NCBI GenBank assembly: GCA_946479905.1
Contig: CAMLIA010000145.1
Location: 1-11,553 of the forward strand
Length of the DNA stretch: 11,553 bases
From: an uncultured Frankiales bacterium
Lineage (GTDB): Bacteria > Actinomycetota > Actinomycetes > Mycobacteriales > SCTD01
Reading direction: 5' to 3'
Shown here: one piece after another, positions 6,095 through 10,408 of the stretch
Layout: each line of letters begins with the position of its first letter
Position numbering within the stretch: position 1 is the first letter of the stretch
Position numbers and translations under genes: made by a program
Notes under the pieces: generated by a model
The model's database searches: none
What the model was told of the DNA's origin: nothing
The model's input: only the letters and a program-made list of their open reading frames with translations

Positions 6095-6754
6095 GTGCGC
6101 CTCGTCCTGGTCGGTCCCCCCGGAGCAGGTAAGGGGACGCAGGCCCAGTTCATCGCGGAGCACCTGCTGGTCCCCAAGATCTCGACGGGGGACATCTTCC
6201 GCGCCAACGTCGGCCAGGGCACCGAGCTGGGGCTGCTCGCCAAGAGCTACATGGACCGCGGCGACCTGGTCCCGGACGACGTCACGATCGACATGGTGCG
6301 GCTCCGGCTGGCCGAGTCCGACGCGGTGACAGGGTTCCTGCTCGACGGGTTCCCCCGCACGGTGCCGCAGGCGCAGACGCTCGACGACATGCTCGCCGAG
6401 GCGGGCGTCAAGCTCGACGTGGTGCTGGAGCTGGTCGTCGAGAAGGACGAGGTGATCCGGCGGCTGTCGGGTCGTCGTACCTGCCGCACCTGCAACCACA
6501 TCTGGCACGTGGAGTTCGACCCGCCCGGCGAGGACGGCGTCTGCGACCTCGACGGCGGCGAGCTCTACCAGCGCGACGACGACAAGCCGGAGACGATCGC
6601 CAACCGGCTCGAGGTCTACGACAAGGACACGGCGCCGCTCGTCAACTACTACGCCGAGCGCGGTCTGCTCATCGGCGTCGACGCGACCGGACCGGTCGAC
6701 GACGTCACGCAGCGCGCCATCGACGCGCTGCGGCCGCTCCAGCACGGTGAGTGA
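6095..6754 (+). CDS. adk: Adenylate kinase, long form with zinc-binding lid
   Basis: Adk converts ATP and AMP to two ADP in the cytosol. The product has 219 residues. The P-loop [10 protein letters not shown] is at 7-16, followed by the AMP-binding segment STGDIFR (30-36), the DGFPRT motif (84-89), and a lid domain from about 126 to 160. The lid holds C130-x2-C133 and C150-x2-D153, the same four positions that bind zinc in the Bacillus subtilis enzyme, so a structural zinc is likely. Mycobacterial Adk is a short form without this lid; this one is the long form. The GTG start gives the standard [14 protein letters not shown] beginning. The stop overlaps the map start by eight bases. Confidence 0.98.
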
Positions 6755-7562
6755 CGTGGGCCTGAGGAACCGCCGGCCCCGCGGGGTGACGGTGAAGACG
6801 CCGGAGCAGGTGCGCAGGATGCGCGCCGCCGGGCTCGTCGTGGCCGAGGCGCTGGCCCGGATGACCGAGGCGGTGCGGCCGGGTACGACGACAGCGGACC
6901 TCGACCGGATCGCGCGCGACGTCCTGGACAGGCACGGCGCCACGTCGAACTTCCTCGGGTACGGCAACCCGGCCTTCCCCGCCGTCATCTGCGCGTCGGT
7001 GGGGGCGGAGGTCGTGCACGGCATCCCGGGGGACCGCCCGCTCGAGGAGGGCGAGCTGTGCTCGATCGACTTCGGGGCGGTCGTCGACGGCTGGCACGGT
7101 GACGCCGCGGTGACGGTGCCGGTCGGGACCTGCGACGCCGACGTCCTCGAGCTCAACCGCGTCACCGAGGAGAGCCTGTGGGCCGCGCTGCGGGCGGTCC
7201 GGCCGGGCGGGTTCCTGTCCGACGTGGGGGCGGCCGTCGAGCGGGTGGTGCGACCGCACGGCTTCGGGCTGCTGGAGGACTACGCCGGCCACGGCATCGG
7301 GACGGCGATGCACGAGCCGCCGTACGTCCCGAACCTGGCACCCCAAGGGCCCGGGCACGGCATGCCGCTGGACGTCGGGATCGTGCTGGCCGTGGAGCCG
7401 ATGGCGACGCTCGGCGCCCCCGAGGTCACGACCCTGGCCGACGACTGGACGGTCGTGACCGCCGACGGCCGGCAGGCCAGCCACTGGGAGCACACCGTCG
7501 CCGTCACCCCCGACGGGCCGTGGGTGCTGACCGCGCTCGACGGCGGCAGCTCACGCCTGTAG
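6747..7562 (+). CDS. map: Type I methionine aminopeptidase
   Basis: Map removes the initiator methionine from new proteins at the ribosome. The product has 271 residues, close to the usual 255-285. All metal ligands of the M24 family are visible: D108 (SIDFG), D119 (HGDA), H182 (GHGIG), E217 (VEP) and E248 (HWEHT). The substrate-site His is H91 (VVHGIP). Spacing from D108 to D119 and to H182 is identical to that in the E. coli enzyme. The GTG at 6747 overlaps adk by eight bases, and GTG 6756 is a possible shorter start. It lies with secY and adk as in many bacteria. The next gene is not infA, as would be usual, but a three-gene insertion. Confidence 0.97.
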
Positions 7563-7576
7563 GGACTGTCCGACAG

Positions 7577-7608
7577 CCGACACCACCGTTGTCCTCGAGC
7601 GGTGTCGG
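7577..7608 (+). terminator. Stem-loop after map, possible terminator
   Basis: CCGACACC (7577-7584) pairs with GGTGTCGG (7601-7608), eight perfect pairs around a 16-base loop, starting 14 bases after the map stop. There is no T run. A second small hairpin (GCGCT-CGGG-AGCGC, 7631-7644) follows before the next gene. The first may reduce read-through from map into the downstream three genes. I found no convincing promoter for those genes, so they may still depend on read-through. Confidence 0.4.
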
Positions 7609-7665
7609 GCCGCACGCTCGTCGGATGCGGGCGCTCGGGAGCGCGCGCGACGATGAGAGGTGCGT

Positions 7666-8355
7666 GTGTTGGGTCGGCCGCAGGAGGACAGCGGGCTGCG
7701 GGGGGACGACGACGTGGCGGGCCACGTGCTGCGGTTGTCGGGCTCCCGGACGGCCCCGACACTGGTGCGCCTGACCAGCTCGCGGGCGGGCGCCCCGGAG
7801 GGAGCCCCGCTGGCGTTCGCCGCGCAGGTCGTCACCGTCGGCGGCGCGCCAGGGGACCCGCCCACCGGGGAGGTGACCTTCCGCGTCGACGGCCGCCGGA
7901 TCGGCACCGCCTCGCTGGACACCGCCGGGCAGGCGGTGCTGGACGGGGTGCAGCTCGCCGTCGGCGTGCACGCGGTCGTGGCGTCCTACGCGGGGGACGA
8001 GCGGCACGCCGCAGCCACCAGCACACCGCTGCCGCAGGCGGTGACGGCGGCCGCCACCCCCGTCGTGCTGCTGGTCGCCTCACCCACGCACACCGCGGAG
8101 GGCGTCGTCATCGAGGCCGAGCTCGTCGACCCCCGGTCCGGGCGGCTCGCGGAGGACGCCGACGGCGAGCTGGTCTTCAGCGTCGGCGGCAGGGACGTCG
8201 GTGCGGCCCCGCTGCGCACGGGCCAGGCGCGCCTCGTCCTCCGCTCCCTGCCCCCCGGCCGGCTGCGCGCGACCTTCGCGGGCGACCGCGAGCACGCGCC
8301 CGCCGAGGGCCAGCTGCCGCCCCACGCCGTCGACCCCTACCCGGAGGCACCGTGA
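7666..8355 (+). CDS. Protein of two bacterial Ig-like (Big_3-type) repeats, no signal peptide
   Basis: The function is not known. The product has 229 residues and holds two beta-rich repeats. Repeat 1 (about 31-120) runs from TLVRLTSS through PPTGEVTFRVDGRRIGTASL (65-84) to GVHAVVASYAGDERHAAATS. Repeat 2 (about 131-213) runs from TPVVLLVAS through DGELVFSVGGRDVGAAPL to GRLRATFAGDREHAPA. This layout (PTG-V-F, then Y/F-x-GD near the end) is that of bacterial group 3 Ig-like domains, usually found in secreted adhesins and enzymes. Here there is no signal peptide, anchor or membrane segment, so it looks cytosolic. GAGAGG (7655-7660) favours GTG 7666, with GTG 7660 and TTG 7669 as alternatives. 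It overlaps the GAF gene by four bases (GTGA). Confidence 0.82.
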   Translation: MLGRPQEDSGLRGDDDVAGHVLRLSGSRTAPTLVRLTSSRAGAPEGAPLAFAAQVVTVGGAPGDPPTGEVTFRVDGRRIGTASLDTAGQAVLDGVQLAVGVHAVVASYAGDERHAAATSTPLPQAVTAAATPVVLLVASPTHTAEGVVIEAELVDPRSGRLAEDADGELVFSVGGRDVGAAPLRTGQARLVLRSLPPGRLRATFAGDREHAPAEGQLPPHAVDPYPEAP

Positions 8356-9125
8356 CCGCGCCCTCGGCCGACCTGGCCGGCATGCTCGAACGACTCGGCC
8401 GGCTCGCCGGCGACGTGGGGCCGGTGCTGGCGCCGGCCGGCCCGGACGACCTGGTCACCGCCGTCGCCGCGACCGCGATGCGGATGTTCGGCGCCCGGGC
8501 CTGCTCGGTCGCGCTGCTCACCGACGACGACTCCGAGCTCGTCTTCACCACCGTGGTAGGCGCGGGGTCGGAGGCGGTGCAGGGCCTGCGGCTGCCGAGC
8601 GGGCAGGGCATCGCCGGCTGGGTCGCCATGTCCGGCCAGCCGCTGGTGGTCAGCGACCTGCAGCGCGACCCGCGCTGGGCAGGCTCGGCCCCTGCCGCCG
8701 GCTACACCCCCACCAGCATCCTGGCCGCGCCCGTCGCGACGTCGGAGCGGCTGCTCGGCGTCATCGAGATCCTCGACCGCTCCGAGGACCGCCCCGAGGC
8801 CGCCGCCGACCTCGAGCTGCTCGGCGTCGTCGCCGACCAGGCCGCGCTCGCCCTCGAGGGTGCCCGCGCCTTCGACGACTTCGGCCGGCGGCTGCTGTCC
8901 GCGGCTGCGGCCGCGGCGTCCGAGGGCGCCGAGCTGTCCGACGTCCTGACCCAGACAGCCGCCCGGCTCGGCCCTCCCGACAGCGACCTGCTCGAGCTCG
9001 CCGCCCTGTTCGGCGAGCTCGGCCGGCTCGACGCCGAGGACCGCCGGCTGGCGGTCCGGGTCGTCCGGCAGTTCACCGACGCCGCGGCCTCGCGGCACCG
9101 ATCCCGCCGTCCCGCCGGCCGCTGA
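8352..9125 (+). CDS. GAF-domain protein with helical C-terminal region
   Basis: GAF domains sense small molecules, cyclic nucleotides, redox state or light, or mediate dimerisation. The ligand here cannot be told. The product has 257 residues. After a helical lead (1-30) the GAF fold covers about 30-172: SVALLTDDDSELVFTTVVG (52-70), LRLPSGQGIAGWVAMSGQPL (79-98), VVSDLQRDPRW (99-109), SILAAPVATSERLLGVIEI (122-140) and the closing helix LGVVADQAALALEGARAF. The rest (175-257) is predicted mostly helical, Ala/Leu/Glu-rich, with a basic tail (RHRSRRPAGR). It has no HTH, kinase, GGDEF or membrane part, so any output must come through partners. Its GTG start overlaps the Ig-like gene by four bases, and the protease gene follows after eight bases. 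Confidence 0.88.
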   Translation: MTAPSADLAGMLERLGRLAGDVGPVLAPAGPDDLVTAVAATAMRMFGARACSVALLTDDDSELVFTTVVGAGSEAVQGLRLPSGQGIAGWVAMSGQPLVVSDLQRDPRWAGSAPAAGYTPTSILAAPVATSERLLGVIEILDRSEDRPEAAADLELLGVVADQAALALEGARAFDDFGRRLLSAAAAAASEGAELSDVLTQTAARLGPPDSDLLELAALFGELGRLDAEDRRLAVRVVRQFTDAAASRHRSRRPAGR

Positions 9126-9133
9126 CGGCCGGC

Positions 9134-10030
9134 ATGGAGGTCGCCGCGCACGCCGTGCAGACCGCCCTGCACAGCGACAGCGCCCCCGCACGGACGGCGT
9201 TGCGCCCCGCCGGCTCCGAGAAGTTCGAGCCGGGTGTGCTGCGCACCGTGCAGCCGCTGCCGGTCGGCATCACCCGCGAGTGGGCCTGGGGCGGCGGGAC
9301 GGGGGCGGGGGTCGACGTCGCGGTCATCGACAGCGGTGTCGAGGACGGCCATCCGCTCGTCGGTCGGGTGGACTCCGCGGTCGCGCTGTCGTTCGACGCC
9401 TCGCAGCCCGACGGCGTCCGGGTCGACGACGGCCCGCACGACGACCTGTTCGGGCACGGCACCGCCTGCGCCGGCATCATCCGGCGGCTCGCCCCGCAGT
9501 GCCGGCTGCACAGCGTCCGGGTGCTGGGCGACCGGCTCACCGGGCGCGGCCCGGTCTTCGCCGCCGGGGTCCGCTGGGCCCTCGACCAGGGGTTCCAGGT
9601 GGTCAACCTCTCGCTGTCGACGGGCAAGGACGACTACCACGGGCTCTTCCACGACCTCGCGGACGAGGCCTACTTCCGCGGTGTCGCACTGGTGTGCGCG
9701 GTCAACACCGCCCCCGTCCCGTCGTACCCCTCGCAGTTCTCGGCGGTGTTCTCCGTCGCGGCCCACGCCCGGACCGATCCCGAGGGGTTCGACTTCAACC
9801 CGGACCCGCCCGTGGAGCTCGGCGCGCCCGGCATCGACGTCGAGGTCGCCTGGCGTGGCGGGGCCTCGCTGTCGGCGACCGGGAACAGCTTCGCGGCGCC
9901 GCACGTCAGCGGGCTGCTCGCCCGGATCCTGTCCAAGCACCCGGGGCTGACCCCGTTCCAGCTCAAGACCGTGCTGCACGCCTGCGCGGACAACGCGGTC
10001 CCGTGTGACACGCCCGACCTCGGGGGGTGA
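9134..10030 (+). CDS. Subtilisin-family (S8) serine protease, apparently cytosolic
   Basis: The product has 298 residues and a complete S8 catalytic set: Asp66 in VAVIDSGVEDGHP (62-74), His108 in FGHGTACAGII (106-116), the oxyanion Asn191 in VCAVNTAP (187-194) and Ser252 in GNSFAAPHVSG (250-260). The substrate-cleft strand VVNLSLSTG lies at 156-164. It should therefore be an active endopeptidase. Only about 45 residues precede the catalytic domain, with no signal peptide, no membrane segment and no classical I9 prodomain, so it is probably intracellular. The ATG lies eight bases after the GAF gene stop without a good binding site, suggesting coupled translation. A frame running upstream of this ATG is a shadow of the GAF gene. 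The substrate is unknown; the two neighbouring gene products are candidates for regulator or target. Confidence 0.92.
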   Translation: MEVAAHAVQTALHSDSAPARTALRPAGSEKFEPGVLRTVQPLPVGITREWAWGGGTGAGVDVAVIDSGVEDGHPLVGRVDSAVALSFDASQPDGVRVDDGPHDDLFGHGTACAGIIRRLAPQCRLHSVRVLGDRLTGRGPVFAAGVRWALDQGFQVVNLSLSTGKDDYHGLFHDLADEAYFRGVALVCAVNTAPVPSYPSQFSAVFSVAAHARTDPEGFDFNPDPPVELGAPGIDVEVAWRGGASLSATGNSFAAPHVSGLLARILSKHPGLTPFQLKTVLHACADNAVPCDTPDLGG

Positions 10031-10186: not shown

Positions 10187-10408
10187 ATGCCGAAGAAGGA
10201 CGGGGCCATCGAGATCGAGGGCCGAGTCGTCGAGCCGCTCCCCAACGCGATGTTCCGCGTGGAGCTGCAGAACGGCCACAAGGTCTTGGCTCACATCAGC
10301 GGCAAGATGCGGCAGCACTACATCCGCATCCTCCCCGAGGACCGCGTGGTCGTGGAGCTCTCGCCCTACGACCTGACCCGCGGTCGCATCGTCTACCGCT
10401 ACAAGTAA
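10187..10408 (+). CDS. infA: Translation initiation factor IF-1
   Basis: IF-1 is an OB-fold (S1-like) factor that binds the A site of the 30S subunit during initiation with IF-2 and IF-3. The product has 73 residues, the standard length. The sequence is diagnostic: [20 protein letters not shown] (9-28), [20 protein letters not shown] (30-49) and the end [17 protein letters not shown]. The ATG is supported by GAGG three to six bases upstream. It is placed with rpmJ-rpsM-rpsK-rpsD as in most Gram-positive bacteria, but here it is separated from map by a three-gene insertion and has its own promoter. Confidence 0.98.

Follow-up and report, generated by a model that had tools for sequence, protein, structure and literature searches.

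Why should an immunoglobulin (Ig)-like protein, a GAF protein, and a subtilisin-like protease of the S8 family be encoded side by side between map and infA? The question is raised by an 11,553-nucleotide stretch of DNA from an uncultured Frankiales bacterium (contig CAMLIA010000145.1; the whole stretch is referred to below as the window). An earlier note on this DNA took the three genes for one module and proposed a cytosolic system of signal-triggered proteolysis. Comparison of the locus with relatives in two phyla leads us to favor a different reading, to which we assign a probability of about two in three: the GAF and S8 proteins would form a cytosolic tag peptidase, and in the clade of the window its tagged substrate would be the folded Ig-like protein.

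Conservation of the GAF–S8 Pair in Two Phyla

Sixty-one relatives were searched, and 53 loci were read closely for the statistics of the gene pair. Three of the 61 relatives have a close S8 protein, namely G007 (75%), G003 (60%), and G055 (50%); the gene order in G007 is map–Ig–GAF–S8–infA, and G003 and G055 carry GAF and S8 without the Ig gene, in different surroundings. A scan of public genomes added one Frankiales and one Anaerolineae locus, each with a GAF–S8 pair and an upstream gene of the major facilitator superfamily (MFS), and profile searches detected the S8 protein in 10 of 396 Actinomycetota genomes (E ≤ 1e-50) and in 35 of 301 Chloroflexota genomes (E ≤ 1e-40). For Chloroflexota, 37 of the 38 places listed were read, the one left out being a match in G473 (2.4e-47).

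A GAF gene adjoins the S8 gene on the same strand in 51 of the 53 loci, which come from both Actinomycetota and Chloroflexota (L024 being counted by its fuller S8 frame). The two loci without an adjacent GAF gene, L160 and L161, both lie at contig ends. Where the order was counted, it is GAF–S8 in 40 loci and S8–GAF in 10. An Ig relative, by contrast, accompanies the pair in two of the 53 loci, the window and G007. In a phylogenetic tree from which L024 and L160 were left out because their frames are too short, the S8 proteins of 51 loci form a single clade with 100/100 support, to which 18 other S8 proteins do not belong; inside it, the window and G007 group with three loci bearing tagged peptides. 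A clade of its own and an adjacent GAF gene define what we call the GAF-linked S8 family. The window S8 protein shows both, and a Gemmatirosa protein (L074, 41% in S8), beside which no GAF gene was called, was left out. One gene cluster of the comparison, c4, was dropped because it looked like frames antisense to GAF and S8. Within the stretches read, a CRP-like protein is encoded in 27 of the 53 loci and an MFS exporter with a C-terminal cyclic-nucleotide-binding domain in 22, the domains having been confirmed on four proteins.

Judged from these loci, the conserved unit is the GAF–S8 pair and not the trio. The earlier note was right that GAF and S8 belong together, as the pair recurs in two phyla, and its claim of a three-gene module does not hold in obligate form, because the Ig gene is missing from most GAF–S8 loci and occurs without the pair in one relative, G005. 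The note had also said that genes found without one another in relatives would speak against a module; such free occurrence was found for the trio, and the pair stays together.

A Recurrent Motif in Peptides Encoded Near the Pair

The motif [D/E][V/T]x[G/A][H/Y/Q] occurs in short proteins, or in the Ig protein, within about 7 kb of the pair in 41 of the 53 loci. The neighboring peptides belong to several classes: tandem-repeat peptides, lanthipeptide precursors with NHLP leaders, and peptides linked to radical SAM enzymes. DDVEGH-like motifs are present in short proteins of 21 loci, 18 of which have at least two copies.

The search pattern partly fixed P5, P4, P2, and P1 (it left P3 open and admitted His, Gln, and Tyr alike at P1), so the following percentages are conditional at those four positions: in the tandem type (84 occurrences in 28 open reading frames, ORFs), P5 is Asp in 98%, P4 is Val or Thr, P3 is Glu in 93%, P2 is Gly, and P1 is His in 93% or else Gln; in NHLP-like precursors, where [DE]Vx[GA][YHF] stands ahead of the putative core in 21 of 22 cases from eight loci with GAF–S8, the corresponding residues are Asp or Glu, Val, mostly Ser or Ala, Gly (95%), and Tyr (90%); and in the Ig type, seen in 21 of 47 Ig proteins, they are Asp or Glu, Val, Ala, Ser or Thr, Gly, and His (95%). 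Subtilisins favor large residues at P1, small ones at P2, and hydrophobic ones at P4.

ORFs with at least two strict copies of the motif were found in 17 of 51 family loci versus 0 of 29 control loci (107 kb versus 663 kb), and ten Markov-resampled sets contained zero such ORFs. At the DNA level, the DDVEGH pattern was found in 48 of 301 Chloroflexota genomes, comprising 19 of the 35 with the S8 protein versus 29 of the 266 others (Fisher p = 1.5e-8), and a reversed control pattern was found in 12 of 301. In 13 of the 19 S8 genomes with the pattern, it lies less than 5 kb from the S8 gene, and in the other six it is on a different contig. The three S8-negative genomes that carry several copies on one contig (G516, G671, and G681; contigs of 3 to 13 kb) have an MFS–cyclic-nucleotide or CRP-like gene there too, in one case also a GAF gene.

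Class III/IV lanthionine synthetases are encoded in eight loci, and L023 has a partial LanKC (480 bits). Three of the eight synthetases score 586–603 bits to LanL, below the NCBIfam cut-off of 650, and two others lie above it in the genome search. NHLP-like precursors accompany the synthetases; the two that were checked reach 31 and 23 bits to TIGR04509 (cut-off 34). Genomes with a lanthionine synthetase encode the S8 protein in 6 of 11 cases versus 29 of 290 for the others (p = 5e-4), and the NHLP profile found no match at six synthetase loci that lack an adjacent GAF–S8 pair (five from S8-negative genomes and one extra locus of G754). At L175 and L176, synthetase loci without GAF–S8, the precursors are of another type, with an acidic leader and a CTWTCAWTCGW-like core, in two copies each. 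The view that the protease serves lanthipeptides alone was rejected: a lanthionine synthetase is near nine of the 53 pairs, and the LanL matches of G007, G003, and G001 cover the kinase domain only.

Radical SAM genes and motif peptides occur together in L084 and L088. The peptide leaders near radical SAM in these loci, and similarly by eye in L023, end in PEVQAH or DVQGY, in both Actinomycetota and Chloroflexota; L088 also has an iron-containing redox enzyme (Haem_oxygenas_2). These peptides look like an unnamed type of ribosomally synthesized and post-translationally modified peptide (RiPP). Six repeat or motif peptides given to Pfam and NCBIfam all stayed below cut-off.

Several neighboring proteins deserve separate mention. 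In G003, a 208-residue frame that adjoins GAF–S8 (L022:9046–9669) has DDVEGH, after which come a hydrophobic segment and long repeats; it would be a different kind of tagged cargo. Small proteins of L087, L089, L025, and L077 have in common, by eye, a helical-looking leader (L..F...L...Q..LLD.I...) ahead of the motif that is unlike NHLP and might represent an additional leader family. In Miltoncostaea oceani and G233, similar proteins of 88 and 85 residues (L073:9536–9802 and L079:8102–8359) adjoin the S8–GAF pair; they carry no tag motif and show a weak likeness, below cut-off, to PF14407, a Frankia ribosomal peptide family, and another gene in each stretch has ETQAH or EVEAH/DVEAH repeats. 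In one lanthipeptide locus, the gene that immediately follows S8 encodes a leucine-rich-repeat protein (L096:7974–8849).

Covariation of a Pocket Residue with the Motif

The strand NLSLST of the S8 family aligns with NMSLGS of subtilisin BPN'. We take residues 125–128 of subtilisin to form a strand that lines the S1 pocket and position 162 of the S8 protein to be equivalent to subtilisin 127. This position is Ser in all 23 tandem or Ig loci. Seven lanthipeptide loci have Gly162 and a motif that ends in Tyr, or in one of them Phe, and the eighth, L076, has Ser162 and a motif that ends in His. Column 162 separates 41 of 41 labeled loci, with Ser accompanying His or Gln in 30 and Gly accompanying Tyr in 11; no other of the 260 columns is perfect, the runner-up reaching 0.66 of 0.84 bits.

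A small-ORF scan of 21 of the 22 remaining loci found motifs ending in His at six Ser loci (L023, L025, L073, L079, L084, and L097) and motifs ending in Tyr at four Gly loci (L077, L087, L088, and L089), which in a strict count of His and Tyr amounts to 6 of 6 Ser and 4 of 6 Gly loci (p = 0.03). The window S8 protein has Ser162, and a His site is therefore predicted.

The Putative Tag of the Ig-Like Protein

DDDVAGH occupies residues 16–22 of the window Ig protein, ahead of the first Ig repeat. This motif, which the earlier note overlooked, ties the Ig protein to the protease. In the 21 tagged Ig proteins mentioned above, the window protein included, it lies among the first 40 residues, and its position is shared while its flanks vary; in 26 Ig relatives it is missing or altered, G007 having the variant DDVRAH.

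Gene linkage was assessed by comparing 46 Ig relatives with 47 S8 relatives (of 120 listed) and 54 GAF relatives (of 120 listed). Nine Ig relatives lie on contigs of exactly the same size as that of an S8 relative and 13 on contigs of the same size as that of a GAF relative, where 0.3 would be expected in each case (sizes jittered by 5%); a 1342-base match (P0135/P0026) was discounted as too short for both genes. Such equal-size contigs are indirect evidence that Ig is linked to S8 and GAF.

Between the window and G007, the Ig proteins are 38% identical, compared to 75% for GAF and 77% for S8, and such fast divergence suits a cargo. The presence of the pair's tag on a folded protein suggests that the Ig protein is the thing cut. 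Among the roles of scaffold, inhibitor, or substrate that had been proposed for it, the last thus gains evidence from the DDDVAGH motif.

A Model for Tag Removal and Its Alternatives

Because motif ORFs lie near the pair and residue 162 tracks the last motif residue, the GAF–S8 pair most likely acts as a cytosolic peptidase on precursors. GAF and S8 would cut ribosomally made precursors after [D/E]-[V/T]-x-[G/A]-[H/Y/Q], the bond we infer, and would thereby remove an N-terminal or repeated tag. At other loci, where the MFS–cyclic-nucleotide exporter is often encoded nearby, the substrates would be lanthipeptide precursors with NHLP leaders, peptides linked to radical SAM enzymes, and tandem-repeat peptides. 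In the window the Ig protein is probably the substrate, and cleavage after His22 of DDDVAGH would free the two-domain Ig protein from its tail. The GAF protein would act as a gate, a chaperone, or a substrate presenter.

A more general version is tentative, and we would not expect it to hold in full: GAF plus subtilase might be a general, possibly signal-gated, tag peptidase common to unrelated ribosomal peptide pathways, with its specificity set by one pocket residue, which the clade of the window redirected to the release of a folded Ig protein, so that a RiPP-type leader tag would sit on an ordinary folded protein. In this version the GAF protein might be a novel element for leader recognition.

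Several observations weigh against the tag peptidase. No plausible motif ORF was found in 12 of the 53 loci, several of them on short contigs, and motif ORFs lie about 5–7 kb from S8 in L023, L073, L084, and L088, with L023 and L084 each also having a nearer one. The DDV[ADE]GH pattern is found in 56 of the 61 high-GC relatives, so that a lone match means little and the search is uninformative. Ten of the 41 labels for column 162 were given when the division into Ser and Gly loci was already known (24 and 7 loci are left without them, p = 4e-7), and the covariation count is inflated by related loci, because about three changes on the tree suffice to explain the distribution of Ser and Gly. The Gly loci L082 and L161 have a His motif instead, in frames antisense to GAF and MFS genes, and once Gln and Phe endings are counted, mismatches appear in L077, L088, and L089 (Gln) and in L073 and L159 (Phe). 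Six of the 13 Ig proteins on apparent GAF contigs (P0143, P0160, P0162, P0163, P0164, and P0166) have no canonical motif, and linkage of the genes thus does not depend on the tag; P0158, matched to an S8 contig, likewise has none. The window shows neither a modification enzyme nor an exporter, and the restriction of the LanL matches to the kinase domain in G007, G003, and G001 counts here as well.

Some of these points suit an alternative in which the protease really acts on different tagged peptides, encoded elsewhere in the genome, the Ig protein being a neighbor with its own job and its motif a relic or a product of chance. The untagged Ig proteins on apparent GAF contigs, the commonness of the pattern in high-GC genomes, and the DDVEGH protein beside the pair in G003, which is not an Ig protein, would all be accommodated. 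We nevertheless consider it unlikely, since the motif keeps its N-terminal place between variable flanks in the tagged Ig proteins and G005 lacks both the motif and the pair. Rather poor odds are also given to the Ig protein as an inhibitor or adaptor, the substrate-like tail of which would block the S8 cleft until GAF is triggered, replacing a propeptide. The S8 protein is indeed without a Pfam propeptide domain, the Ig gene overlaps GAF by four bases directly upstream, and its motif resembles the substrate motif; however, a partner of this kind is at odds with the rarity of the Ig gene at GAF–S8 loci, with a divergence much faster than that of GAF and S8, which is cargo-like rather than interface-like, and with the several Ig proteins that seem to keep GAF–S8 without the motif.

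Finally, a stress, regulatory, or defense system, triggered by a signal in the cytosol and unrelated to peptide maturation, strikes us as improbable. The GAF fold, the CRP-like and cyclic-nucleotide-binding neighbors in many loci, and a PADLOC "subtilase" match of 78.6 bits would fit such a system, but RiPP-like precursors, lanthionine synthetases, radical SAM enzymes, and exporters are among the neighbors in other genomes, PADLOC gives only a partial match to IetS, and the window shows no IetA-like partner. For the "signal-triggered" part of the earlier note, the GAF fold is the one piece of evidence.

Comparison with Known S8 Proteases

Cytoplasmic S8 leader peptidases are already known. ElxP, from the epilancin 15X pathway, is a cytoplasmic member of the S8 family with the motif (D/E-5)(L/V-4)XX(Q-1) (PMC10885120), the register of which matches that of [D/E][V/T]x[G/A][H/Y/Q]. 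It differs in serving a class I lanthipeptide, and P1 in the GAF–S8 motifs is mostly His or Tyr; the likeness noted here is that of motif register, and the main text of that review does not contain the word GAF. AmyP is an S8 protease of class III lanthipeptides in Bacillus and serves a kinase-type lanthipeptide precursor, as is proposed for the protease at some GAF–S8 loci; its motif, (T/S/A)EVE, is different, and the passage on it in the review mentions no GAF partner (PMC10885120).

Among protein family models, the best NCBIfam match of the window S8 protein is QhpE (NF049966; 112 bits over residues 62–284, cut-off 165), the subtilisin-like protease of the quinohemoprotein amine dehydrogenase pathway. 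Membership was rejected on account of the score and because no qhp gene was recognized in the window. A type VII secretion mycosin was likewise rejected: TIGR03921 gives 109 bits to the subtilase core (cut-off 278.75), no ESX or secretion genes were recognized in the window, and no membrane anchor is visible. The IetAS defense system combines full-length IetS with the ATPase IetA; the IetS model reaches 22.9 bits, its best stretch covering residues 61–115 only, and in the absence of a recognizable IetA-like partner in the window this system was rejected as well. The cyanobactin proteases PatA and PatG act on recognition sequences around several cores. They too are S8 proteases of a RiPP pathway (PMC10885120), and the cyanobactin model TIGR03895 gives only 21 bits to the window protein (cut-off 421).

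A literature search, outside of which most subscription journals lay, found nothing on the GAF–S8 pair, its motif, or the pocket rule; the motif strings turn up in unrelated papers, DDVEGH for instance in one on hypertension (PMC12027864), and a Bacillus proteome paper contains both protein names. Relative to the literature found, a GAF-paired S8 family that would serve several peptide classes, together with its motif and pocket rule, appears to be new.

The Locus between map and infA

In the window, map (6747–7562) and infA (10187–10408) flank three plus-strand ORFs (Table 1); the remaining genes are translation genes, secY, adk, and map. The three are tightly packed, as had been described, with a four-base overlap (GTGA) at the Ig/GAF junction and an eight-base gap between GAF and S8, and their Pfam matches agree with the assigned families. 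The Ig protein consists of an N-terminal tail of about 37 residues and two Big_3_5 repeats (PF16640, 85.5 bits in two stretches, cut-off 35.5), the GAF protein matches PF01590 (73 bits, cut-off 22.4), and the protease matches Peptidase_S8 (PF00082, 81.5 bits, cut-off 21.8). The triad D66, H108, and S252 is invariant in 64 aligned relatives and lies inside stretches that align with subtilisin. Pfam detects no propeptide domain in the S8 protein, and the alignment of the family profile with subtilisin BPN' starts at profile position 36 of 274. Judged by eye only, none of the three proteins has a hydrophobic N-terminal stretch or export signal; a cytosolic location would be in keeping with this.

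Table 1. Positions in the window of the three genes, the predicted tag, and selected S8 codons
Feature	Position	Strand	Remarks
Ig-like protein gene, 231 aa	7660..8355	+	GTG start; Pfam; homologs; same place in G007
GAF protein gene, 257 aa	8352..9125	+	GTG start; GAF domain and conserved C-terminal extension; partner of S8 protease
S8 (subtilisin-like) protease gene, 298 aa	9134..10030	+	ATG start; proposed precursor peptidase
DDDVAGH motif, Ig residues 16–22	7705..7725	+	predicted cut after His22
Catalytic Asp66 codon, S8	9329..9331	+	invariant
Catalytic His108 codon, S8	9455..9457	+	invariant
Ser162 codon, S8	9617..9619	+	aligned with subtilisin Gly127; covaries with last motif residue
Catalytic Ser252 codon, S8	9887..9889	+	invariant

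The three-gene order is not due to chance, because G007, which belongs to another genus, has the identical order from map to infA. The locus varies by presence and absence. G013, the nearest among the relatives searched (Map 86%, SecY and Adk 94–95%), has an empty map–infA site, and the three genes were not found at this site in G001, G003, G008, G009, G012, and G016. Of the three genes, G005 (L181) has just an open Ig frame, with 57% identity, between map and infA; the motif is gone from its N terminus, and no close S8 protein was found in this genome (best match 1.9e-13; genome 91% complete). This lone untagged Ig frame is a natural test of the tag idea.

An old, lineage-specific gain, as the earlier note had supposed, is compatible with these data, set beside the variation in presence just described. 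Its remark on genome-like composition applies to third codon positions, where the GC content of the three genes (0.95–0.96) is like that of map (0.97) and adk (0.95), and less so to overall GC content (0.74–0.79), which is somewhat above that of ten other genes (0.64–0.75).

Implications

Many RiPP and lanthipeptide clusters depend on unidentified leader proteases (PMC10885120, PMC8960859). An adjacent GAF–S8 pair as a marker, the predicted site of cleavage, and a rule that ties this site to one residue would together allow core peptides to be predicted for unnamed precursors in two phyla. If the model is true, the tag on a folded Ig-like protein would widen the uses to which such tags are put.

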